Part shown: positions 1,561-45,120 of the stretch, in pieces
Numbering within the stretch: position 1 is the stretch's first letter
Layout: each line of letters starts with the position of its first letter
DNA from: Candidatus Saccharimonadota bacterium
GTDB lineage: Bacteria; Patescibacteriota; Saccharimonadia; Saccharimonadales; UBA4665
Direction of reading: 5' to 3'
DNA length: 53,727 nucleotides
NCBI GenBank assembly: GCA_027327085.1
Contig: DAHWAT010000002.1
Coordinates: 1-53,727 of the forward strand
Translations under genes and position numbers: made by a program
Notes under the pieces: generated by a model
What the model was told of the DNA's origin: nothing
Databases searched by the model: none
The model's input: only the letters and a program-made list of their open reading frames with translations

Positions 1561-2640
1561 TTAACGCCTAAGTGTACGCTTTGATAAATAGTGCTTAGCT
1601 ACTAGGCTCTTTAACTCCCGTCTTTCACCCAACCAAAAACTGATGATCATTAAAATAATAATGATGTAGGTAGGCCAAATAAACCATAACAAGTTCTGAG
1701 CCGTTTTAGATTTAATAATAGATAGGCCATTAGCGACTGGGTTATTGTTATTTAAATTAGTTAAACCAACTTGATTAACAGGATTGGCTTTAATAACTGC
1801 GCTTAATTGAGTAACTGCCTTGTAGCCGGCAGAGTCTATCGAGCTAACTATAATTGTGTAGATGCCGCTCTTTTGGTAATGATGTTCAACAGTAAAAGTC
1901 GGATCGGCTTTAAAAAAGAAGTTTGAATAGGTATTGTCCCCCCAGTTAACATAGACAAAGTAAGGCGGTTGACCGCCGCTTAAAGTCATTTGCCAGGCAT
2001 AGGTCTCACCGGTGGTAAATGTCTTATAGCTGCTAGTTGCGCTTAACAGTAGGCTTGAAGGAGCAGGTTGGCTAGGTAAGGTTGAGGTTGAAGGATTAGG
2101 CGGTTGTGGTGAGTTGGCTGCTGGTATGGTTTGGGCAATCGGTGGCTGGGCGCTTGTTGCCGGCACATAAATAACCCGCAAGCTGCTGCCTGCAGGGCCA
2201 GCCTGATTGGTCAGATTATAGTCCTGAGCAAGCAGATTATTACTACCTGGAGTTAAATCAGTTTCTATTTGAAAACTATTATTTTGGCAAACAGCCATGC
2301 CTGACGCATAACCATTCCTAACCAAAACGACATAGGAGTTGGGCGGACAGTTACCTATTACCTTAATTGGTGAAGTAGTCAGTTTTTGATTATTACTTAA
2401 ATTAGTAATTGTAGCTGGGCTAGTTAAGGCCTTGGCTGGCACTACTGCTGAAATATTAATAGTTTGGGCGCTTGAGACAATGGTTGAAGTTGCCAGGATA
2501 ACACCTAGACACAAAAAGATAAATAGCGAAGCGGGACTTAAAAATATTTTTTTATGGGTTGGCCGCTTAGCTTTAATTAACTGCTTTTTTGATTGCTTAA
2601 GCGTCTTGTTAATAGTTGGTTTAGTCTTGGTTTTTTTCAT
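1561..2640 (-). CDS. PKD-domain-like membrane protein (N- and C-terminal TM helices)
   Basis: Lys-rich N-terminus plus TM; GGQPPYFVYVNWGDNTYSNFF...HHYQKSGIYTIIVSSIDSAGY is PKD-like; C-terminal TM followed by a basic tail. Confidence 0.7.
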   Translation of the reverse strand: MKKTKTKPTINKTLKQSKKQLIKAKRPTHKKIFLSPASLFIFLCLGVILATSTIVSSAQTINISAVVPAKALTSPATITNLSNNQKLTTSPIKVIGNCPPNSYVVLVRNGYASGMAVCQNNSFQIETDLTPGSNNLLAQDYNLTNQAGPAGSSLRVIYVPATSAQPPIAQTIPAANSPQPPNPSTSTLPSQPAPSSLLLSATSSYKTFTTGETYAWQMTLSGGQPPYFVYVNWGDNTYSNFFFKADPTFTVEHHYQKSGIYTIIVSSIDSAGYKAVTQLSAVIKANPVNQVGLTNLNNNNPVANGLSIIKSKTAQNLLWFIWPTYIIIILMIISFWLGERRELKSLVAKHYLSKRTLRR

Positions 2641-3647
2641 GGTTTAGGTTTATATTTTATGAACCAAATTCTTTTTGTTAAATAGTAGCATAATAAACCA
2701 AATATAATGATTGTTGAGGCATTAATCAGCGCAAATATTCGGTAATAGCTATCAAAAACGCTTTTAGCTTTAGTGGTCAGAGAGGCAACTGATTGTTGGC
2801 TCGCAAAACTAATCATATAAACCTTGCCATAATTATTAAAATCGATTAATTCGCCTGCGGCGATTACCGACTTACCTAGGTAATTAATTTCCTTACTAAA
2901 AACCGTTTGTCCACTGACGGTCAACTTACTTAGAAGCGGTTCTTTACCCCTTATATTAATAAGGCTGGTACTAGGTATATTGTTGTAGCTTAAGATATCG
3001 CCGTTAGCATCAACTAAGACGTTAGTGTAAGTATGATCGTCCGCTAAAAGATTAAGTTTATGGGCTAAAGTAGATAGACTGGCATGACCGATAATACTGC
3101 CCAGTGGTTGGCCACTGCTAGACATAACAGGAGCAATGAAACTTACAACTAGCCGATTAGTGCCACTTTTAAAAGCCGGTAAAATAGCTGTTTGATGCTG
3201 ATTGAGTGTTTTAGCCTCAGCCGCTGTTGAGCGTTGATTGACTAAACTAGTTGACGCATCTGAAGACACGGCTATTAAGCTATTCTGATTATTGGTAGCC
3301 TCAATGGTGTCCAGCCCCTGATTAAAGGTTCTTTGTTGATCAAATACATTAACTAACCCGACACTATTAGATGAGTTTAAGTAATTATTGATTAACTGGC
3401 TAGTGGCAATATTCTGGATGACACCGATAGTGTTAGAATAGTAATCGTTAACCGAGCTAACATTCCCCTTCTCATAGGTACTAAGCTGTTGCTGATCTAA
3501 AACTTGTTGACTATAGCTATAACGATCAAATAGCTTTTGTTTAAACTCAATCAGATTAAGCGCTATTAAGCCAAGCCCTATAATAATCAGGCTGATGATA
3601 GCCGTCCTATAAAACAAGATCAAGTTTTTGCTTTTTATTTTTGACAT
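2637..3647 (-). CDS. membrane protein with Cache-like extracellular sensor domain and no recognisable output domain
   Basis: Two TM helices flank a ~250 aa ectodomain with FIAPVMSSSGQPLGSIIGHASLSTL and VLVDANGDILSYN; only a short basic C-terminal tail follows. ATGA overlap with the downstream gene. Confidence 0.6.
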   Translation of the reverse strand: MSKIKSKNLILFYRTAIISLIIIGLGLIALNLIEFKQKLFDRYSYSQQVLDQQQLSTYEKGNVSSVNDYYSNTIGVIQNIATSQLINNYLNSSNSVGLVNVFDQQRTFNQGLDTIEATNNQNSLIAVSSDASTSLVNQRSTAAEAKTLNQHQTAILPAFKSGTNRLVVSFIAPVMSSSGQPLGSIIGHASLSTLAHKLNLLADDHTYTNVLVDANGDILSYNNIPSTSLINIRGKEPLLSKLTVSGQTVFSKEINYLGKSVIAAGELIDFNNYGKVYMISFASQQSVASLTTKAKSVFDSYYRIFALINASTIIIFGLLCYYLTKRIWFIKYKPKP

Positions 3648-3686
3648 GAATATATTTTTAGTACCTAGATTATATTATAACAGAGT

Positions 3687-4787
3687 TTATTCGTGTCGCA
3701 CCTTGATGGCTTTCTTCTTAGTTGTTTGAGCTGCTAAATTAGTGTCTGAGGGCGTTATTTTAACCTGAATTTTTTTAACTGGTTTGGGCTTTAATTTAAA
3801 GCTGTAACCCGTTTTGGCTAGTTGTTTTTTCTTTCTTTTATATAAAAGATTGGTTGAAAACTTATTGACATAGGCAGCCAGTAGCAAAATTAACAAACCC
3901 ATAACTAACCCTGGCAGGATCAGATAAGGACTCAGATAGAAAAACTGCTTGGTGTAAGTATAGTTTGAACTTTGATTACTTAAACTGTAACTGACAACCA
4001 GCTTATAGTTAGCCGGTAATAACGAGACTTTGCTAATTGGACTTAGCTTAATATTAAATAAACGGCTGGCACCAGGTAATATAAGGCTGGAATTAGGGTT
4101 AATAAAACCTTGGCTAATAAGCTGGCCTTGATGGCTATAGATCCTGATTAATCCGTGAATAATTGCCTGGGAATTACCAGTGTCTTTAAAGACAAGGTTA
4201 AGTTGGCTTGGAAACCTAGCATAAAACTGGCTAGCAATCGGCAAAAGCAACTGGACGCTAGTACGACCTGCGCCAGATGAGCTTAAAAAGACTAGACTGG
4301 CTAAGGCTTCTTTGATGGCTATCGGTGTTTTACCGTTACCGGTTGCCCCCTGGTTAACACTGTAAATAATAGCGGCATAATGACCACCTGGAGCTAACTG
4401 TCTAATACCGCTTATTTTAACCTGGTCTAATACAGTTTGGTAGCTAGCCAAAACAAGACTAGGCTGACTGAAGCTGATAGAGTTTGCTAGATCATGGTCT
4501 TTATTAATTGCCTGGTCACTAAAGGCTAACCCGCCGTTTAGGCCAAGACTGCCGAAGTTTCTAGCACTTAAGTTAACGGTTGTAGTAGCTTGACTGTTAT
4601 TTTTAATGGTGACATTAAAAACCGTGGTATTTTGGCTTTTATTTACAACTATTTGCTTAATAGCTGGGCTAACACTAATGCTGTGTGGGCTTTGCAAGCT
4701 GTCAGCATGAGCCTTAGTCGTAACTAAAACTAAACCGACTAAAAGCAAACAAAGGCTTAAAGACCTAAAAATTCTTAGGCCGGCCAT
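3687..4787 (-). CDS. secreted/membrane Ig-like protein (DUF916/WxL-partner-like), C-terminal TM and Lys-rich tail
   Basis: Signal peptide MAGLRIFRSLSLCLLLVGLVLVTTKAHA; SVSPAIKQIVVNKSQNTTVFNVTIKNNSQATTTVNLSARNF; C-terminal TM. Internal ATG at 4787 preferred over the track start at 4841. Confidence 0.65.
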   Translation of the reverse strand: MAGLRIFRSLSLCLLLVGLVLVTTKAHADSLQSPHSISVSPAIKQIVVNKSQNTTVFNVTIKNNSQATTTVNLSARNFGSLGLNGGLAFSDQAINKDHDLANSISFSQPSLVLASYQTVLDQVKISGIRQLAPGGHYAAIIYSVNQGATGNGKTPIAIKEALASLVFLSSSGAGRTSVQLLLPIASQFYARFPSQLNLVFKDTGNSQAIIHGLIRIYSHQGQLISQGFINPNSSLILPGASRLFNIKLSPISKVSLLPANYKLVVSYSLSNQSSNYTYTKQFFYLSPYLILPGLVMGLLILLLAAYVNKFSTNLLYKRKKKQLAKTGYSFKLKPKPVKKIQVKITPSDTNLAAQTTKKKAIKVRHE

Positions 4788-5868
4788 GACGACTTGTGCC
4801 TTTTTTTGGTTTTGCAAAATCAAATAAGTTAGTCCAGCCACGCTTAAAACCTCTAATAATTAAGCCTATTATAGCCAATATGAGCAAGATTGTTAGGATT
4901 AGTTCTAAGATTAAAGTCCACGGTATAACCCAAAAAGATACAACAGCATTGACCGGTACCTCTGTTATACCATCGTTATAGACTAAGGCCAAATTGGCAT
5001 AATACTTACCAAATCGGAAATCGGATAATGGCTTGTCGTAGTTCCAATCTAAGTACCTAATCGGCTGTCCTTGTTTGTTGGATATTATCTGACCATGCAG
5101 CGTTTTATCTTTATAGACAGGAAAGCCATTAGTCCAACTGACGCTAAACTGACGACTAGAATTAGGTAGCACATTATTTAAGTCAGGGTTAAACGCTAAA
5201 CTATCTATCGTCTTACCGCCCGGGCGTCGACTAATGTAAACATCACCTTCAGGGGCAATGAATATATTGCCTGGATTTTTAATGGTAATCGTAAAAGTGG
5301 CTGGTAAAAAATTATAGATTTTCTTTGAGGCACTAAAGCTGGTTACCTCGAGTTTTTTCACTTCGTTACTGCTACTAGCATTAACTAGTACAAATATGGC
5401 ATTGGCGCTTTTAAAAGTGGCTGCTTTATCTTTAACGGTTAGGTTATTGCTAGCCGAGAATAGTACGGCGTAGTAATAACCCAGAGCAGCCGTTGGGGGT
5501 AAATTAATTGTCATTTTAAGCGTATTCCAAACATTGGGCTGGGCAATAAAGTTATTCTTAGAAAAATGTACCCAATTCATGCTTGGATCATTTGGTCCTG
5601 GACTATATATGGCGGCTTGGCCATGAATGCCGTAAGCTTTAAACTTTTCAAGCTTAATTGATATTGTAGTCGGACTAGTGCCGTTATTTTGTACCGACAG
5701 ATTGGTTGATGCTGGCTGACCAGGTGTACCCACTAGATCAATAAAAATTGGACTAGTCGTTAAAACTGTTGCACCGCTAATAGCACTGACTAGACCAGAG
5801 CTCAAGCTAATTAAAACTAGGCTAAAAAAAGTAACTGCAAACAAGAATCTTTTAGCTAGACTACGCAT
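4765..5868 (-). CDS. secreted/membrane Ig-like protein (DUF916-like), C-terminal TM
   Basis: Signal peptide MRSLAKRFLFAVTFFSLVLISLSSGLVSA; FIDLVGTPGQPASTNLSVQNNGTSPTTISIKLEKFKAYG; C-terminal TM plus basic tail. Start placed at ATG 5868; track ORF starts at 5913. Confidence 0.68.
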   Translation of the reverse strand: MRSLAKRFLFAVTFFSLVLISLSSGLVSAISGATVLTTSPIFIDLVGTPGQPASTNLSVQNNGTSPTTISIKLEKFKAYGIHGQAAIYSPGPNDPSMNWVHFSKNNFIAQPNVWNTLKMTINLPPTAALGYYYAVLFSASNNLTVKDKAATFKSANAIFVLVNASSSNEVKKLEVTSFSASKKIYNFLPATFTITIKNPGNIFIAPEGDVYISRRPGGKTIDSLAFNPDLNNVLPNSSRQFSVSWTNGFPVYKDKTLHGQIISNKQGQPIRYLDWNYDKPLSDFRFGKYYANLALVYNDGITEVPVNAVVSFWVIPWTLILELILTILLILAIIGLIIRGFKRGWTNLFDFAKPKKGTSRHGRPKNF

Positions 5869-5893
5869 GGTATTTAGTTTCTTAGGAATTATA

Positions 5894-6946
5894 CTAGAAA
5901 CTACCGGCACCAACTAAAGTAATGGTGTCGCTATAATCAGCTGCAGCGGGAGTTGTTGGAGAAATTGAGGCATACTCTTTGACTGTAACAACTGCGCCAT
6001 TGGCTGTTCCATTGGAGCTAGCTAACTGCCTTGGCACAGTATTAAGTCCGCTGCCATTGCCAGTAGCACTTGAAGCATAAGCCGTTGATGCCGAAGTTGT
6101 ACCCGAACCGCTTCCTTGAGTAATACCACTTGCCGGTAGACCGGTCAGATAGCCTTCGCTGCCACTGGTTAGGGTAGCGTTTGTGCCTGGAGTGGTAGAA
6201 GCAATCGTATAGTTTTGGGTTGCAGAAGTTAAGCCGCTGTTACTATCACTGCCCCATAAATACCAGCCGGACTTAGCATTAGTGTTAATGGTAGCTGTTA
6301 CACCATTCGTGCTAGCGATTGAACTACTAGACAAATTAGATGTAAAACTATCGGTATTAGAACTTAAGGCCATTGTAAATGAAGGAGGTACGGTAGCACT
6401 AACCACAACTTGATCATTAGAAATGATGTTGATGGCTACATTGGTAGCTGTATCGCTTCCAGCAGTTACGCTAACTGTTTGTTGCCCAGTAGTTGTGGGG
6501 TTAGCTGTAATGCCGCTAGCTAAGACATAGCAATATGACGTACTGGCTGTCAGGGCCGTAGAGTCGGTTATGGCAATCGTGCCAGTTGAAGCAGTTCCAG
6601 CGGCAGTTGGGCTGCCTGGTAGATCAGCACTGGCTCCAGTAATGGCCGTGCAGTTGGCACCGTTATAGGTACTGGTTACGGTCTGAGAGGTGGCAACTGT
6701 ACCCGTACCACTACTGCCTGTCCAGCCGTTAAAGACTAGGCTGCCATTAGTCCCCGTATTAGTTGATGAAGTTGTAAACTCAACTATAATGGACGATCCG
6801 GCTCCGGCGCTCATATTGGTCAATATGACCGAAGTTTTAGATAAGTAACTTGCCGATACTGAAGGAATAAAAGCCAAACTAGGTAGCAAAAAAGCCACAG
6901 CGGCAATTATCACTTTATAGCGATTTGTAAAGCGTGATTTAATCAT
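5894..6946 (-). CDS. secreted Ser/Thr-rich surface protein with WxL-like C-terminal domain
   Basis: Signal peptide MIKSRFTNRYKVIIAAVAFLLPSLAFIPSVSA; GGAG SD at 6953-6956; C-terminus ...TPAAADYSDTITLVGAGSF shared with the next gene. Confidence 0.7.
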   Translation of the reverse strand: MIKSRFTNRYKVIIAAVAFLLPSLAFIPSVSASYLSKTSVILTNMSAGAGSSIIVEFTTSSTNTGTNGSLVFNGWTGSSGTGTVATSQTVTSTYNGANCTAITGASADLPGSPTAAGTASTGTIAITDSTALTASTSYCYVLASGITANPTTTGQQTVSVTAGSDTATNVAINIISNDQVVVSATVPPSFTMALSSNTDSFTSNLSSSSIASTNGVTATINTNAKSGWYLWGSDSNSGLTSATQNYTIASTTPGTNATLTSGSEGYLTGLPASGITQGSGSGTTSASTAYASSATGNGSGLNTVPRQLASSNGTANGAVVTVKEYASISPTTPAAADYSDTITLVGAGSF

Positions 6947-6992
6947 TAATTTCTCCATGGTTATACATTTTTATATATCTTACTTACCCATA

Positions 6993-7022
6993 AAGATATA
7001 CTAATCTAACTAGTCTTGTCAA
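6993..7022 (-). promoter_or_regulatory. sigma70-like promoter for the surface protein gene
   Basis: Minus strand TTGACA (7017-7022), 18-nt spacer, TATCTT (6993-6998), ~45 nt upstream of the ATG. Confidence 0.55.
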
Positions 7023-7036
7023 CGCTTGTGCTTAAA

Positions 7037-8059
7037 TTAAAAGTTGGCAGCCCCTAAAAAGGTTAAGGTTTCAGAATAATCGCTAGCTGGAGGTGTTGCA
7101 CTGGAAGTAATAGCCTTGGTAAACGCAGTTGCCGAACCATTGGTAATCGGGTAGGCGCTGCTTATAAATTGTGTCGGAATGGTTGATTCTCCACCAACAA
7201 TACTGCTAGTGCCTGCGTATATCGAATTAATCACAAACGGCCCACCACTAGTTTCGGTAGGATTGCTGGCCTGTACGCCAAATCCTTCGCTTAAAGACGA
7301 TAAATTGCCACTGACAGCGGCAATGGTATGATTTGCAAAAGCACTGTAAAGTCCGCCATACTGACCATAGATATAGATAGCGCCTCCGGAATTAGCGTTA
7401 GTGCTTAAGCCTAAGGATAAGCTGGGGCTAGATACTACACTACCAGGCAGTAAACTGCCCATTGCGATAGTGTTGGGACTAACGCCAAAAGATATAGATG
7501 GTGCTACAGTTGAAGCCGTTGCCGCTGCACTAAAATTGGTATCTGAGAATTTACCGGCTTGGGCATCAACTCTAGCCTCATAAGTTGTTGAATTGGCCAG
7601 GCCTACGATATCGATACCGCTAGAACCGCCCCAGGCACTGTAGGATTGATAGACTGGTGTAGTATTTAAACTACCGTCTGCCTGAAGATAGCTGTAAGTC
7701 GTAAAGTTATTGGTGGAAACTTCTACTGAATAGGTTGAGTTAGATGGATCTTGACTACTATTGATTATAAGCAGTAGCTTATTATAAAAGCTGTTGTTAC
7801 CGTTACTAAGACTGGGAGCAGGCGGCGTATTAAGCTGAGACGCATTGATTGAGCCGTTATTTGATTGGTACGTCGTTGAGTTAGTGGTGCCATTAGCTTG
7901 CTCTCCAAGAGCACCTCTTAGTGAATAAGTAGTTGAACTGGCACTATTGGTACCGGCCGGTCCAAGACCGTAACTATTCAACTGGTAATTAGCACTCGCT
8001 GAAAAGCTAGCAAAAAGACCTAACACTAAACCCGTAATAGCCAGCCCAGACCTCATCAT
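7037..8059 (-). CDS. secreted surface protein, FN3-like middle and WxL-like C-terminal domain
   Basis: Signal peptide; STTYSLRGALGEQANGTTNSTTYQSNNGS; FN3-like TPPAPSLSNGNNSFYNKLLLIINSSQDPSNSTYSVEVS; C-terminus ...TPPASDYSETLTFLGAANF. Confidence 0.7.
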   Translation of the reverse strand: MMRSGLAITGLVLGLFASFSASANYQLNSYGLGPAGTNSASSTTYSLRGALGEQANGTTNSTTYQSNNGSINASQLNTPPAPSLSNGNNSFYNKLLLIINSSQDPSNSTYSVEVSTNNFTTYSYLQADGSLNTTPVYQSYSAWGGSSGIDIVGLANSTTYEARVDAQAGKFSDTNFSAAATASTVAPSISFGVSPNTIAMGSLLPGSVVSSPSLSLGLSTNANSGGAIYIYGQYGGLYSAFANHTIAAVSGNLSSLSEGFGVQASNPTETSGGPFVINSIYAGTSSIVGGESTIPTQFISSAYPITNGSATAFTKAITSSATPPASDYSETLTFLGAANF

Positions 8060-8102
8060 AGTTATATTCTATGTTTTTCAACTTATTTAGACAAATGCGT
8101 GT

Positions 8103-8675
8103 CTAATGCCACCGCCAGGAGTTGAGCAACATGTTAAAAACGGTTTGTAGTGAAGGATCATTAAGCCGATTGGCGCTCAAGCTAACGATCGCCTGATTGT
8201 TGTTATTAACCAAGAAGGCTGACTGATTATAGGTTGACGTATTAATCTGTGTCATCACGTTCACGCTTTGATTATTGACCTGTAAAACAGTATGCCTATA
8301 GGCATTGGGGTGAATTTGACGCTCCTCATAGGCGTTATTATCATTTAAATTACCTCCCGGTATCTGCAGGATTGAAATCGCTAAAAACCACTGCTCGCTA
8401 TTATGATCAATAAAATTATAGTCAGCGATTACCTGTCCAGTAGGTGTTTGAGCAGGATAAGTGCTAAAAACTTTTGGATAAGAAAATGATGCGTAAGTGG
8501 TGTTAAAGCTCACTGGGGTTAAGCTATTGGTAGAACTATTGTCTAGACTAGACGTATTAGGATAGATAATTGTGCCCTGTGCTGGACGATTAATGTACCT
8601 AACAACTAAGACCATAACCAAAACTATAAGGATAGAGGATGCTACAACATATTTGGTCTTGTTTGCGCCTACCAT
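8103..8675 (-). CDS. hypothetical membrane-anchored extracellular protein
   Basis: N-terminal TM (YVVASSILIVLVMVLVVRYI) and ~150 aa ectodomain. Confidence 0.6.
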   Translation of the reverse strand: MVGANKTKYVVASSILIVLVMVLVVRYINRPAQGTIIYPNTSSLDNSSTNSLTPVSFNTTYASFSYPKVFSTYPAQTPTGQVIADYNFIDHNSEQWFLAISILQIPGGNLNDNNAYEERQIHPNAYRHTVLQVNNQSVNVMTQINTSTYNQSAFLVNNNNQAIVSLSANRLNDPSLQTVFNMLLNSWRWH

Positions 8676-29347: not shown

Positions 29348-30466
29348 TTAAGGGGTAATAAAGTGCTGGAAGGTTGAGGCTGGCACCCAAGCACTGCCTA
29401 CCCTATCCCAACCGCCACCATCACCGTAATTATTCATGTCTCTAACGTGAATAAGATTACCGTTGACTCCTTCAACTATGGCAACATGGCCTTCTCCTCC
29501 AGCTGCCAGAGCTGTCTGGGCAATAGAACCAACGGTTGGTGTCGTCGAGACGTTCCAGCCGCTTAGACTGGCGTAGTAGGCCCAAGAGCTGGCATTACCC
29601 CAATCACTCGGCACGGCAATTTGGGTAGCAACGTACCAAGTACAATAACCAAAATCGTAGCCGTTGTAGCCATAGGTTGGGCCTGACCAACCGGATAAAC
29701 CGCCTTGGCCTGAAGACTGATACGACGCAGTTTGAATTTGGCCATTAGGCACAATGATTTGCTCGCCAACCTTAAGACCACCAATTTGGGCATTATTATA
29801 GGCTATAATTTGCTGCTCATTAGAGATGAATTTTTGAGCCAAAGACGCCGGTGTATCACCTTGTTTGACAGTATAGACTATGCCGTTAATTGGAGGAATG
29901 ACTAACTTTTGTCCTGCGCTTAAAGTATTAGAGGTTAGGCCATTGGACCACATGATGCTATTACTGGTAACACCGAATTTTTGAGCCAAAGACGCAACTG
30001 TGTCACCGGGCTTAGTTATGTAATAAAATATATCAGCTCTGGATTTAAGAGCTGTTTTTACTACTTCCGGTTTACTGATAACGTTAACTGTGTCAGATGC
30101 CATTGCCTCATTTGCAGCAGCAGTCTGGGCCTGGTTAGCGACTGCTGTTGTCTCTGGCAGGTTAGTAACCTGAGCAACCGTTAAGGCGATATTGGCGCTC
30201 GATGCTTGATCTAGCGGATTAATGGCTGTAGCTGTGCCTGAAACTTGAACGTTATTAACAAATGAGTTAGCGCTAGTTTTATTATCTAGAACAAAAAAGA
30301 CAAAAAAAGCCACTACTGCCAAGTTTAGCAGTAAGGTTAACCGCTTAACTAGCTTGCTCTTAAAACCAAGCTTCAGTTTAAAGCCGAGCCTTTTTCTAGG
30401 CTGTATTTTAGTAGTTAGTCTTACTTGAGGAGACAAACTAACAGATTTAGAAGAGGTTGTACTAAT
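29348..30466 (-). CDS. double LysM + CHAP peptidoglycan amidase/endopeptidase; possible ATT start
   Basis: Two LysM (YYITKPGDTVASLAQKFGV; YTVKQGDTPASLAQKF) and CHAP (GYDFGYCTWYVATQIAVPSDWGNASSW...GHVAIVEGV). Frame open back to ATT 30464-30466, 7 nt after AAGGAG (30474-30479); track start is TTG at 30436. Confidence 0.85.
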   Translation of the reverse strand: MSTTSSKSVSLSPQVRLTTKIQPRKRLGFKLKLGFKSKLVKRLTLLLNLAVVAFFVFFVLDNKTSANSFVNNVQVSGTATAINPLDQASSANIALTVAQVTNLPETTAVANQAQTAAANEAMASDTVNVISKPEVVKTALKSRADIFYYITKPGDTVASLAQKFGVTSNSIMWSNGLTSNTLSAGQKLVIPPINGIVYTVKQGDTPASLAQKFISNEQQIIAYNNAQIGGLKVGEQIIVPNGQIQTASYQSSGQGGLSGWSGPTYGYNGYDFGYCTWYVATQIAVPSDWGNASSWAYYASLSGWNVSTTPTVGSIAQTALAAGGEGHVAIVEGVNGNLIHVRDMNNYGDGGGWDRVGSAWVPASTFQHFITP

Positions 30467-33797: not shown

Positions 33798-35120
33798 TTA
33801 TACACTTAACATTTTATCAATTTTATCGCGAATTGACTCATTTTCTCCAGCTAATTGTTGAGTATCCATGCCTACCCTTAAAAGTCCCATTGCCGTGATG
33901 AAGGTATGGTCCTTCACATCTCCGGTTGAGTCTTTAATGCCAGCCACTTGATCGGGTCTGATATGGTGGACACTTGGTTTACGGGTAAATGGCAAACCTT
34001 TATACCATTCTGATTGTTCTAACTTTTCCATTAGAATTTCCAGTGAGCTTCCACCGCCGCAAAGAAACATGCGGTGTGGTAAATGATCAAGTTTGTCGAA
34101 CTCACTTAAAGCTAACTCAATACCGCCAATCCAAACATCGGCCGTTTTTTCTAGAGAAACCTCTACTGGTGAGCGTTTATTGGCTGGTATTTCATCGGTG
34201 CTTAAACCAACTTTAAGGGTCTCTGCTTCTTCAAAATCGACACCCAAATCTCGTTCTACGGCATGAGTATAGGCTCTACCACCTATACCAAACATTTTAG
34301 TACCTTGTACGCCACCTTCGTTAATGACCGCAATATCGGTAGTGCCGCCTCCTACGTCCATTAAAATGGCACTTAGGTTTTGATTAACATTGTTACCTAT
34401 AACAGCCCTGGCTACGGCAAAGGGTTCAGCGGCAACCGCTAACAGATCAAGGTCTAATTCTTGGGCGGTCTTTTCCAGTGCACCGATATGTATCATCGGC
34501 GCAAAGGCCGTATAGAGCTGAACGACTACGTCCCTGCCCTGAAAACCAATTGGGTTAGTTACCGGATAGCCATCTATTTCAATGCTTACTAGGGCACTAT
34601 TTACTAGTCTTACTTCAACTGTTTTACCGCCAAGTTCCCAAGCTAACTGTTGTTTAGCCTTTTCCTGAGCCCGATCTTGCACTAGATTTATAATCTTTTC
34701 CATTTCGTTGATATCTAGCGCCTTAGTCGGATCTTTTCTGGCCACCCTAACGGTTGTAGTTGTGCCTTTAACTAATTCTCCGGCAATACCTATGATGCAA
34801 TTCCTAACACTAATACCAGCTTGGGTTTCGGCCTGGTTAAGCGCTTTGTCGCAATTTTCTACAACGGCAGCAATATCCGATATGGCCCCAGCCTGCATAT
34901 CCGATAAACCTTGATGTGACCTGCCTACACCAACTATTTCAACTTGTCCGCCACTAGTAATTTTACCTATCAAAGCCTTAACAAACTCGGTGCCGATGTC
35001 TAGAGCCACTAGATAATCGGCTTCGTTTTTGGTTTGACGACTAGAAGCATTATTGACCATATGGCTGACATGCTGAACTAGATCAGTACTAAGCTTCTTG
35101 AATTTATCAAGCATATGCAC
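33798..35120 (-). CDS. ftsA: FtsA-like actin-family cell division protein
   Basis: VALDIGTEFVKALIG, ILMDVGGGTTDIAVINEGGV, MFLCGGGSSLEILMEKL. Confidence 0.85.
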   Translation of the reverse strand: MHMLDKFKKLSTDLVQHVSHMVNNASSRQTKNEADYLVALDIGTEFVKALIGKITSGGQVEIVGVGRSHQGLSDMQAGAISDIAAVVENCDKALNQAETQAGISVRNCIIGIAGELVKGTTTTVRVARKDPTKALDINEMEKIINLVQDRAQEKAKQQLAWELGGKTVEVRLVNSALVSIEIDGYPVTNPIGFQGRDVVVQLYTAFAPMIHIGALEKTAQELDLDLLAVAAEPFAVARAVIGNNVNQNLSAILMDVGGGTTDIAVINEGGVQGTKMFGIGGRAYTHAVERDLGVDFEEAETLKVGLSTDEIPANKRSPVEVSLEKTADVWIGGIELALSEFDKLDHLPHRMFLCGGGSSLEILMEKLEQSEWYKGLPFTRKPSVHHIRPDQVAGIKDSTGDVKDHTFITAMGLLRVGMDTQQLAGENESIRDKIDKMLSV

Positions 35121-35820: not shown

Positions 35821-36618
35821 CTACATGTTACTGAGACGAAGATGGGTAGTAGACTGGCTTTGTGGTAACTTACCTGAACCTAACGCTTTTTCTTCAATAG
35901 TATTTTTATGGCCACTGCTATCCGTCGTTGCGTCTCCACCTAGGGTCGCAACATCTTTAGGAGCAGTGGCACCTACGCCGCCGACTCCGCTATTACTGGT
36001 TGCGGGAACTGCGACACTTCCAGGAATATCAATATGTTGGCCAGGGAAAATTAAGTTTGGATTAGTTATACCTTTGTTAGCAGCTTCCAAATTAGCTAAT
36101 GGCACCCCATAATGCTCAGCAATAGCACTTAAAGTATCGCCAGACTTTATAGTATAAGAAGCACTTGTATTGCCGGAGGAAGTATGACTTAAAGATGCAG
36201 GATTAGGTGTTCTTGGAACATTAGCGTATCCGCCATTGCCTGATGGTGCAACTCTAGAAAGAGCAGCATAATTATCATTAGCATTTGAAGCTACACTTAC
36301 GCCATTGGGCATAGTTGTAACAGTAGGGGTTGGGGTTACGGCACTGGCGGTTGAAGCAGATTGTTGGGCGGCCAATAGTTCACTTCTTGCGTCTTTTACT
36401 TGAGCTATATCTGTCTCAGCAGCATTATATCTGGCAGAAGCATCCTTCACTTCATGCATAGTACTAGCACTACTATCTATAACTGCTTTATCCCCTGCGG
36501 CTGCATTTTCATAGTTTTGTATCTGGGTATCTGCTTGAGATACCGACGTAATATTATCGACTCTACCATCAGCTAAATAAGCCTGATAAGTCCCTGGATT
36601 TCCTTGATTGTCTGCCAT
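35821..36618 (-). CDS. LysM-domain protein without an obvious signal peptide
   Basis: YTIKSGDTLSAIAEHYGVPLANLEAANKGITNPNLIFPGQHIDIPG LysM; hydrophilic Ala/Ser/Thr-rich N-terminal region. Confidence 0.85.
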   Translation of the reverse strand: MADNQGNPGTYQAYLADGRVDNITSVSQADTQIQNYENAAAGDKAVIDSSASTMHEVKDASARYNAAETDIAQVKDARSELLAAQQSASTASAVTPTPTVTTMPNGVSVASNANDNYAALSRVAPSGNGGYANVPRTPNPASLSHTSSGNTSASYTIKSGDTLSAIAEHYGVPLANLEAANKGITNPNLIFPGQHIDIPGSVAVPATSNSGVGGVGATAPKDVATLGGDATTDSSGHKNTIEEKALGSGKLPQSQSTTHLRLSNM

Positions 36619-38688: not shown

Positions 38689-40575
38689 TTAAGCTAAAAC
38701 GGCTTTAATTCTTCTGACTCCAGCACTGCTGGCTTCTTCTTTTATGATTTTAAAACGTTTGTTGCCTTCAGCCAGCTGAGCAGTATGATCGACGTGTGGA
38801 CCACCACATATCTCAAAGCTAAAGGGCTTATCGGCTTGGTCGGCTATCATTTTATAGACTTTAACTGTATCGCCATAGCGGTCACCAAACTGCCCAAGTG
38901 CGCCCATGGCTAAAGCTTGCTTAGTTGGGTACTCCTCAAATGAAACTTTGAGGTCTTGATCAATTTGTTGGTTAACAATATCTTCCACTTGTTTTATTTC
39001 TGCAGCAGTTAATTTTTGAGGGTGAGCAAAATCGAAACGTAATCTTTCTTCAGTAATATTAGCGCCTTTTTGGACCACGTGATCACCTAAAACGTTACGC
39101 AGCGCTTGGTACATGAGGTGTGTAGCCGTGTGGTACTTTTTGTGCTGCAAGCTATTACCTGTCAAACCACCCTTAAACACACCCTTACTGGCCGTCTGGG
39201 AACGGGCACGTTGTTCGTCCATCAGCTTGTTGAAATCAGTTAGCGCTTGATCGTCTACTGCGACATTATGGGTCGCAGCTTCTTCAAAGCTTAGTTCTAC
39301 TGGAAAACCGTAGGTATCATATAGCTTAAAAATAGCTGCTCCGGTTAACTTATCTTTAGACAACCTTATAAATTCATTAAGACCCTTCCTTAAAGTTTGT
39401 CTAAACACTTTTTCTTCTTTAATTAAAACTTCAACTACCTCATCTCTAGCCGCGGCTACCTCAGGAAAATCTTCATGATACAAGTCGCTAATAATCGGCA
39501 CTACTTGGCTAAGAAAGTTTTGTTCTATACCTAGGTCAAAGGCAAACCTAATTGCCCGTCTGATGAGGCGACGCATCACATAACCTTGTTCTTTATTGGA
39601 AGGCCTAACGCCATCAACAGCTAGAAAAGTTGCGGCTCTTAAATGATCGGCAATTACGCGCATGCTTTGGGTATTAGAATCATATTTTTTAGACGAAATC
39701 TGTTCAAGTTTTGCAATAATTGGCCAGAGTAAACTTATTTTAAAGGCGTCAGGATCGTTAATGGCTGCCGCGGCGATACGCTCAAGTCCTCCGCCAAAGT
39801 CTACATTGGGTTTTATAAGAGCCTCAAAGCCATTTTCGGTTCGTCTAAAAGCCATGAAGACGCTATTGGCAATCTCTATAAAGCGACCGCAGTCACAATT
39901 TGGATGACAATACTTTCCCAGCTTAGGATCGTGTTCAATATTGCTAAACTCATAAAAAACTTCACTATCTGGGCCGCAAGGATCACCTATCGGCGTACTT
40001 TCCTCGGCGCCGTTTCGACTCCACCAGTTTTTTGAACCATCATAGAAAAATATACGCTCATTTGCCTTTATGCCACGGTTGTAGCCATCAGCTTCACTGC
40101 CCATATCGGCCATCTCGGCTTTAACTTGCTTGGAGGCGAATAATTGCTGCCAAATGTTAGCTGACTCTTCGTCTTTGGCAATAGCAAATTTTTGATTACC
40201 AATGTAGCAAGTTACATAAAGCTTGCTCGGATCAAGACCAACTGTTTCGGTTAAGAATTCAAACAGCCAAGGTATCTGTTCAGACTTAAAGTAGTCGCCT
40301 AAGCTCCAGTTGCCAAGCATTTCAAAAAAAGTAGTATGCCGATTATCGCCAACTTCTTCTATGTCTTGAGCTCTAAGGCAAGTTTGACTGTCGCTAAGCC
40401 TGGTTCCCTCGGGATGTTTTTCACCAAGTAAATATGGTATCAACGGCTGCATGCCGGCACCAGTAAATAAGGTTGTAGGATCATTGTTAGGCACTAGTGG
40501 CGCTCTTTTAATAATCTTATGCCCCCTGTCAGCATAAAACTTTAAATAGGCCCGTCTAATCTCTTGTGCATTCAT
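38689..40575 (-). CDS. alaS: alanyl-tRNA synthetase lacking the C-Ala region
   Basis: MNAQEIRRAYLKFYADRGHKIIKRAPLVPNNDPTTLFTGAGMQPLIPYLLGEKHPEG; editing motifs HTATHLM and CGGPHVDHT; ends at ASSAGVRRIKAVLA. Start at internal ATG 40575. Confidence 0.96.
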   Translation of the reverse strand: MNAQEIRRAYLKFYADRGHKIIKRAPLVPNNDPTTLFTGAGMQPLIPYLLGEKHPEGTRLSDSQTCLRAQDIEEVGDNRHTTFFEMLGNWSLGDYFKSEQIPWLFEFLTETVGLDPSKLYVTCYIGNQKFAIAKDEESANIWQQLFASKQVKAEMADMGSEADGYNRGIKANERIFFYDGSKNWWSRNGAEESTPIGDPCGPDSEVFYEFSNIEHDPKLGKYCHPNCDCGRFIEIANSVFMAFRRTENGFEALIKPNVDFGGGLERIAAAAINDPDAFKISLLWPIIAKLEQISSKKYDSNTQSMRVIADHLRAATFLAVDGVRPSNKEQGYVMRRLIRRAIRFAFDLGIEQNFLSQVVPIISDLYHEDFPEVAAARDEVVEVLIKEEKVFRQTLRKGLNEFIRLSKDKLTGAAIFKLYDTYGFPVELSFEEAATHNVAVDDQALTDFNKLMDEQRARSQTASKGVFKGGLTGNSLQHKKYHTATHLMYQALRNVLGDHVVQKGANITEERLRFDFAHPQKLTAAEIKQVEDIVNQQIDQDLKVSFEEYPTKQALAMGALGQFGDRYGDTVKVYKMIADQADKPFSFEICGGPHVDHTAQLAEGNKRFKIIKEEASSAGVRRIKAVLA

Positions 40576-40607
40576 GCATAGGATTGTAGCAGATTTGATC
40601 GCATGCT

Positions 40608-41639
40608 TCATCCGATAATACCACCGCCCAGTACTAAATCTTGATCATATAATACGGCTGACTGGCCACTGGCTATACCACGCATTGGCTCATCTAAAAC
40701 TAAAGCGTGATCATTGAGCTGAGCCTTTACTAAAGGCCCACGGTAGCGCAAACGGGCCATTAGACGATTACTCCTCGTAGGCGGCGAATTGATCCAATGC
40801 AGATGAGTTAGCTTAACCTTATCTGTCCATAGGTTTTGATCATCAAGATTGGTAGTTACATAAATTAGGTTATTTTGCATATCCTTTTTGGTGATGTAGT
40901 AAGGTAAACCGCCGCCAATATTAAGACCATGTCGCTGGCCAATGGTGTAAAAAATAGCTCCATCATGTTGGCCAATCACTTGACCGGTTTGGTCAATGAT
41001 CGAGCCTGCTGGCTGTGGGCCAAGCTGACTAAGTAGAAATTCTTTGATCCCAACCTTACCTACAAAACAGATACCTTGACTATCTTTTTTATCGGCAGTA
41101 TATAAGTCTAGTTTTTTAGCTAAGGCCCGGACTTCTGGTTTGGTCATTTCGCCAATTGGCATCAGACCTTTTTGCAGGGCCTGAGATGAGACTCGGTACA
41201 GAAAATACGATTGATCCTTGTTGCTATCTAAGCCGGTATAAAGATGACCGTTTTTGATCCTAGCGTAGTGTCCGGTAGCAATCAAGTCTGCGCCGTCAGC
41301 TAGAGCCGTTTCCAAAAAGAGTTTAAACTTGACTTCTTGATTACACATAATATCAGGGTTGGGTGTACGTCCCGATTGGTATTCTTTGATCATGTAGTCA
41401 ACTACTCTAGCCCGGTAGTCTTTTTCAAAATCATACAGCTTAAAATCTATTTGAAGCTGCGTGGCTACTCTTTTGGCATCCATATAGTCTTCTTGCCAAG
41501 GACAAATAAAACCTGGCAAATCTTGCGTCCAGTTCTTCATATAAACACCTGTGACATGGTAACCTTGTTGCTTGAGTAGGGCTGCCGTAAGCGACGAATC
41601 TACACCGCCGCTCATGCCGACGTATACTTTTTTAGACAT
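40608..41639 (-). CDS. mnmA: tRNA-specific 2-thiouridylase MnmA
   Basis: VYVGMSGGVDSSLTAALL, NPDIMCNQEVKF, SQGICFVGKVGIKEFL. Confidence 0.97.
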   Translation of the reverse strand: MSKKVYVGMSGGVDSSLTAALLKQQGYHVTGVYMKNWTQDLPGFICPWQEDYMDAKRVATQLQIDFKLYDFEKDYRARVVDYMIKEYQSGRTPNPDIMCNQEVKFKLFLETALADGADLIATGHYARIKNGHLYTGLDSNKDQSYFLYRVSSQALQKGLMPIGEMTKPEVRALAKKLDLYTADKKDSQGICFVGKVGIKEFLLSQLGPQPAGSIIDQTGQVIGQHDGAIFYTIGQRHGLNIGGGLPYYITKKDMQNNLIYVTTNLDDQNLWTDKVKLTHLHWINSPPTRSNRLMARLRYRGPLVKAQLNDHALVLDEPMRGIASGQSAVLYDQDLVLGGGIIG

Positions 41640-41659
41640 TGCTAATCATTATAGCTTAT

Positions 41660-42538
41660 TTAATCCAAGCAGGCGGCTATGGCAACTTGAGCAGCTTGAC
41701 GGAATTTAGCCATATTAATAGACCTGATGGTTTCAAGTCGCTGTTGATCTAAATAATAAGTCTGCTGGTTATGTTGAAGAGCGTAAACTGCCTGATCTTT
41801 TGAATCTAAAAAGGCTAGTGGGCTTAAACGGGCTGGCCTTAGACTAAAATTGTTATCGGCCAGAAAAGTTTGAATCAAAAAACCATTAGCTCCACTTGAG
41901 CCGCTTGGTAAAGCGTTGTTAGACTTTTTCAGCTTGCAGATTGAACCCGGAGGTAAATAGATATCATCTACTAGTAGTGGCTCTAGGGTTAAAAGCGTTC
42001 TAGCTTTATGGCTTTTTTGTACGCCAATCGGCTGTTGATTAGGGTCATGTACAACATTGATTATCGGTTGACTTATAAAACGGTTCTGTAGCAGCTGATT
42101 ACAGGTATCGCTAAAGTATCCTTCCGCTTCCGGGCAGGCATCGACATAGTCTGTCCTATGAGCCTTGAACTGATGCTTCTTAGCTGTTTTTGGATCAAAC
42201 TGAAAACTGCCACTACTAAAAATTAAATCGGTTATTTGTTGCAGTTTTGGTCTTAGTGCCTTAACCCGATAATCTTCGGCTAAGGCAAAATCCAGCCAGG
42301 CATTAAAGACTACTCTAGAAAAAACTGTAGGATATAGAGTTGAGTTATGCGACTGAGTGTTACGGCCCTTAATTACATTGGCGATTTCAGAGTCCAGAAT
42401 TGAGTTAGGACTTCTAAGATCCTGGTAGCTTAATAAGCCACCTATTTGACTGGCAATAAAGTCGGTTTGGCTCTGGTTTAATTGATCTAGATGGTCGGCT
42501 ATCTGCTGACTAGCGACACGATTAAGTACTTCTGTCAT
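41660..42538 (-). CDS. hypothetical protein
   Basis: 292 aa intact ORF between mnmA and the atp operon; no family recognised. Confidence 0.55.
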   Translation of the reverse strand: MTEVLNRVASQQIADHLDQLNQSQTDFIASQIGGLLSYQDLRSPNSILDSEIANVIKGRNTQSHNSTLYPTVFSRVVFNAWLDFALAEDYRVKALRPKLQQITDLIFSSGSFQFDPKTAKKHQFKAHRTDYVDACPEAEGYFSDTCNQLLQNRFISQPIINVVHDPNQQPIGVQKSHKARTLLTLEPLLVDDIYLPPGSICKLKKSNNALPSGSSGANGFLIQTFLADNNFSLRPARLSPLAFLDSKDQAVYALQHNQQTYYLDQQRLETIRSINMAKFRQAAQVAIAACLD

Positions 42539-42585
42539 TAATACTTATAGTAATACATTTTTAGGATTTTTACTACTATATGTTT

Positions 42586-45120
<2,535 letters not shown>

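Follow-up and report, generated by a model that had tools for sequence, protein, structure and literature searches.

An unusual version of the Pam pilus gene set in a Saccharibacterium

Closest described systems and layout of the locus

The systems closest to the locus described here are the Pam system of CPR bacteria, the WxL clusters of Firmicutes and, by the fold of one of its proteins, the archaic and class 5 chaperone-usher systems with chaperones such as CsuC and CfaA. The Pam system combines secreted pilins that end in an aromatic residue with a DUF916-like membrane partner and the RbmA-like protein PamR; our literature search on Pam pili found no source paper, and the label 'pilus' therefore rests on NCBI naming. 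In WxL clusters, the partner protein WxLIP has a long hairpin loop that is predicted to become ordered by strand addition to WxL (PMC10599100). The locus that we analysed is an unusual version of the newly named Pam pilus gene set, and we put at roughly 60% the probability that this Saccharibacterium locus is of a divergent Pam type and encodes a pilus or adhesin, with two membrane proteins, D and C, serving as strand-donating chaperones.

The window, that is the whole stretch of 53,727 nucleotides under analysis, belongs to an assembly of 636 kb that is 82% complete and represents a tiny, probably host-dependent Saccharibacterium; the first-pass annotation was right to assign it to CPR. The locus occupies approximately positions 1561-8675 of the minus strand, more than the 3687-8059 assigned to it by the first-pass annotation, and consists of seven closely spaced genes that, read from 8675 to 1561, are G, F, E, D, C, a dCache-like gene and R. 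G (8103-8675) encodes a cassette member of 190 aa with an N-terminal transmembrane (TM) segment and an extracellular domain, and its homologues adjoin pilin or partner genes in many loci. F (7037-8059) and E (5894-6946, with an alternative start at 6958) encode secreted pilin-like proteins, F with a PamT-like N-terminus and E with a two-domain beta-sandwich architecture. D (4765-5868), the third gene, encodes a WxLIP/PapD-like partner with two Ig-like domains between its signal peptide and a C-terminal TM helix; its likely start is the ATG at 5868, and a longer reading frame to 5913 would overlap E. The fourth gene, C (3687-4787), likely starts at the ATG at 4787 and specifies a second WxLIP-like membrane partner. 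Next come the gene for a membrane protein resembling dCache (2637-3647), whose match to Pfam dCache_1 (E 1.7e-8) misses the cut-off, and R (1561-2640), which encodes a homologue of the RbmA-like PamR (NCBIfam NF058578) with a C-terminal TM helix.

Of note, G is a conserved single-TM protein with W-x-W at its end and belongs to no known family, and the dCache-like protein, which has an extracellular domain and no kinase part, was found in this window alone among the loci examined. A D-alanyl-D-alanine carboxypeptidase gene (371-1552) adjoins the locus, and genes for LysM/CHAP cell-wall proteins are located elsewhere in the window (29348-30436 and 35821-36618).

Membrane partners D and C

The first-pass annotation had described two overlapping downstream genes for proteins with a signal peptide, Ig-like domains and a C-terminal TM helix, and had likened them to DUF916 partners. 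The first description holds, and the likeness is supported at the level of remote kinship. The D and C genes overlap by 23 nt, the two proteins are homologous (BLASTP 3e-8; profile-profile 2e-23), and a hydrophobic segment is present at the N-terminus of either protein and a TM helix at its C-terminus, the latter being kept by 26/26 partners. For comparison with genuine WxLIP and WxL proteins we used plasmid-borne WxL clusters from Enterococcus mundtii, E. innesii, E. raffinosus, Lactiplantibacillus plantarum and Listeria innocua, with a WxL-like sequence as bait that served solely to locate annotated WxL genes. Against genuine WxLIP, hhalign gave 97.5% (E 8e-12) for D over its full length, 92% for C and 98.8% for the partners from canonical Pam loci, with decoys remaining below 1%. 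Pfam WxLIP_PGBD was matched by 8/8 canonical Pam partners (best 1.4e-8) and weakly by 11/26 D family members, D and C of the window falling below the Pfam cut-off. By profile comparison and predicted fold, D and C are thus remote relatives of Firmicutes WxLIP (DUF916/DUF3324). The window partner agrees with its Firmicutes homologue in length, domain order, C-terminal TM helix and hairpin position; it differs in that the NQIDKxxxYFDLK-like segment is missing, as it is from 48/48 relatives.

The model of D (pLDDT 85.9) places Ig-like beta domains between the hydrophobic segment and the TM helix, and Foldseek returned as its top PDB matches the chaperone CsuC, then 9i25 (WxLIP bound to WxL) and CfaA, all with E around 1e-10. 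Ig-like folds are common, and whole-chain TM-scores were modest (target-normalised up to 0.57). D resembles CsuC and CfaA in its predicted two-domain Ig chaperone fold, but is tethered to the membrane, and the genome lacks an outer-membrane usher, as no PF00577 match was found in the 82% complete assembly. Between strands 129-139 and 156-164 of D lies a hairpin loop (residues 140-155; 5404-5451) with a pLDDT of approximately 50, dropping below 50 at residues 146-152, which is the sole internal stretch under 50 beyond the signal-peptide junction. Since the profile alignment superposes the two regions, this loop probably corresponds to the WxLIP hairpin and is a candidate donor hairpin. A LolA match on D was below the cut-off and isolated, and was dismissed.

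Secreted proteins E and F and their kinship with Pam pilins

E and F had been proposed to share a C-terminal domain, and this was confirmed by BLASTP: the two proteins align with 37% identity over 129 aa up to the last residue (44.7 bits, E 1e-9). The domain comprises E residues 184-350 (5897-6397) and F residues 183-340 (7040-7513), and profiles of the two families (28 and 17 sequences) match at 99.2% (hhalign, E 8e-20). Every element listed for the pair is present in E and F, respectively: TNAKSG/TNANSG, NYTIA/NHTIA, GSEGY/LSEGF and the ends DYSDTITLVGAGSF and DYSETLTFLGAANF. The terminal aromatic residue is kept in 28/28 homologues of E and 17/17 of F, as opposed to 22% of ORFs from the same loci, and the DYx(D/E) element together with the final aromatic is retained in all 45/45. 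The AF2 model of E (pLDDT 91.7) has two parts and is beta-rich throughout past the signal peptide; the shared C-terminal domain is a beta domain and most likely serves as the assembly domain. Searches of PDB sequences with E, D and one Pam pilin gave no matches, and a Pfam Tachylectin match on E (0.004), being isolated and below the cut-off, was dismissed.

Comparison with the NCBIfam models and with canonical Pam loci places this gene set among Pam systems. R matched the PamR model NF058578 with E 1.5e-51 and 175 bits (curated cut-off 300), and is hence homologous but divergent, while F matched PamT (NF058579) over residues 15-73 alone (59 residues; E 1.1e-6, 28 bits, cut-off 240). HMMER found no match to CPR_Pam_pilin_C (NF058581) anywhere in the genome, E and F included. 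In profile-profile comparisons the C-terminal domain of F was colinear with that of Pam pilins (87%, 4e-6) and the corresponding domain of E matched them directly at 21% (1e-3), with reversed and shuffled decoys reaching at most 1.2%; this decoy-controlled test is stricter than the 97% that hhalign gave for full-length E against Pam pilins, a figure carried in part by signal peptide and composition. D and C matched the canonical Pam partner at 1e-38 and 4e-35 (hhalign), so that a DUF916-like partner stands beside pilins here as in Pam loci. On these sequence comparisons, E and F are relatives of the NCBIfam Pam pilins, which is why the locus is better classed as Pam-type; it is divergent, with every NCBIfam score below its cut-off and only a remote resemblance of the pilins to those of the Pam system. 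It also differs from the Pam system by the addition of G and the dCache-like gene and by its genomic position.

Canonical Pam loci of two relatives (L033 and L035) comprise pilins, one or two DUF916-like partners, which bear no NCBIfam name, and PamR; six of their pilins, five of them in L033, pass or strongly match NCBIfam Pam models. In these relatives and in a third (L040), atpD-atpC and mnmA-alaS flank the canonical Pam genes. The equivalent site of the window, atpD-atpC-orf292-mnmA-alaS (38689-44270, minus strand), is empty of Pam genes, the sole gene between atpC and mnmA (41660-42538) encoding a 292-aa protein with no Pfam match. As atpD, atpC, mnmA and alaS are all present on the contig, the absence of the canonical locus from its site is not due to a gap in the assembly, and the locus described here is the only one of Pam type that we found in the 82% complete genome. 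Some relatives carry a second PamR-like gene near alaS (L035:16721-17776, L034:15982-17205, L040:15841-16824), followed in L035 by a gene that resembles the PilM-like (by eye) gene at 33798-35120 of the window, a hint that PamR-like proteins may be connected with type IV pili.

Co-occurrence, proposed mechanism and alternatives

Among GTDB species genomes, E was found in 29 loci, with D directly downstream in 24 of them, and the gene order R-G-F-E-D-C recurs, R sometimes being located away from the cassette. In the 195 genomes of Saccharimonadia, full E occurs in 20, full D in 21 and both in 19, so that a D partner accompanies 19/20 genomes with E and only 2/175 without it (Fisher 4e-23, a value inflated by the shared ancestry of the genomes; phylum-wide adjacency points the same way). 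The exceptional genome with E but no full D has its E gene at a contig end. Relatives of E were detected in 51/380 genomes across the phylum, and outside Saccharimonadia a pilin-like gene adjoined a WxLIP-like gene in 20/20 regions examined. Secreted and membrane components therefore pair across CPR genomes, and the pilin-like proteins gain a likely cognate membrane chaperone. Both this pairing and the kinship of the partners agree with the original proposal of a cognate anchoring or assembly system, which is the most likely reading. In three relatives (L047, L049 and L051), the cassette has as neighbours genes for repetitive tail-fibre-like proteins of the GDIIRQYLMKEHYNDDTDN type as well as short genes of transferase-like kind.

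For the locus in the window the analysis shows the kinship of the proteins, the gene order, the co-occurrence and the predicted folds, and we infer strand donation, fibre formation or polymerisation, and host attachment. E and F would be exported as pilins or adhesins whose shared C-terminal domain, with its conserved aromatic end strand, serves assembly, and D and C would be exported and retained in the membrane through their C-terminal TM helices. D, a membrane-tethered PapD/WxLIP-like chaperone by predicted fold, may insert a strand from the hairpin of its first Ig domain (residues 140-155) into the pilin C-terminal domain, by analogy with WxLIP and PapD-type chaperones; a specific contact can thus be proposed between the D hairpin loop and the C-terminal domain of E. 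Strand donation would fold or stabilise the pilin and hold the subunits or pass them on at the cell surface in an usher-less manner, and since neither an usher nor sorting signals were found, handover would take place at the membrane surface itself. R and G would act as accessory membrane proteins.

The first-pass annotation had called the locus WxL-like, and its analogy with Firmicutes WxL loci stands for the membrane half of the locus and fails for the secreted half: D and C match WxLIP, but E and F are unlike WxL. If E and F bound peptidoglycan via a WxL domain and D and C were their WxLIP, the kinship of the partners and the combination of two secreted proteins with a partner, as in Firmicutes clusters (PMC10599100), would be accounted for. 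We consider such true WxL display very improbable and, at the sequence level, largely refuted. Pfam WxL had no match in 28 E family members or in the genome, the E and F domains scored just 0.2-0.4% against genuine WxL profiles, and both proteins lack the second W-x-L and the terminal TWxL that are present in 11/12 and 12/12 genuine WxL proteins, respectively; comparison with genuine sequences from the five species thus ruled out a WxL identity for E and F. Nor does the locus have the LPXTG partner of Firmicutes WxL clusters. A sortase-built pilus, or sortase-anchored adhesins, would fit with the one sortase of the genome, yet its gene lies on another contig and E and F, in which we looked for an LPXTG sorting signal with a C-terminal TM helix and found none, end in a beta strand without an LPXTG-TM-KR tail, and this origin of the structure is extremely unlikely.

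Permanent anchoring of single E and F adhesins on the membrane by D and C, with no polymer formed, deserves more weight, although we still regard it as rather unlikely. The C-terminal TM helix kept in 26/26 partners and the lack of an usher are both in line with such non-fibrous display, as are the Foldseek matches of E to MSCRAMM-like two-domain adhesins. Those PDB matches (adhesins, integrins) reach whole-chain TM-scores of merely about 0.2, however, and are uninformative as to kinship, and E and F are homologous to proteins named Pam pilins, of which relatives encode several per locus.

The Pam-type reading with D and C as strand-donating chaperones suggests how bacteria devoid of an outer membrane might assemble surface fibres and keep them in place, and connects Pam pili with WxL display, which have so far been treated separately. 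Host contact by the surface proteins of the locus is plausible, and the reading bears on how CPR epibionts build host-contact structures. It is possible, if tentative, that usher-less donor-strand pili form a wide class among CPR bacteria, and that their membrane-tethered chaperones share WxLIP ancestry, bringing Pam, WxL and PapD-type systems into one scheme, and that the locus of the window is a distinct second branch replacing canonical Pam. The D, C and canonical branches were grouped in a tree that comprised 85 partners.
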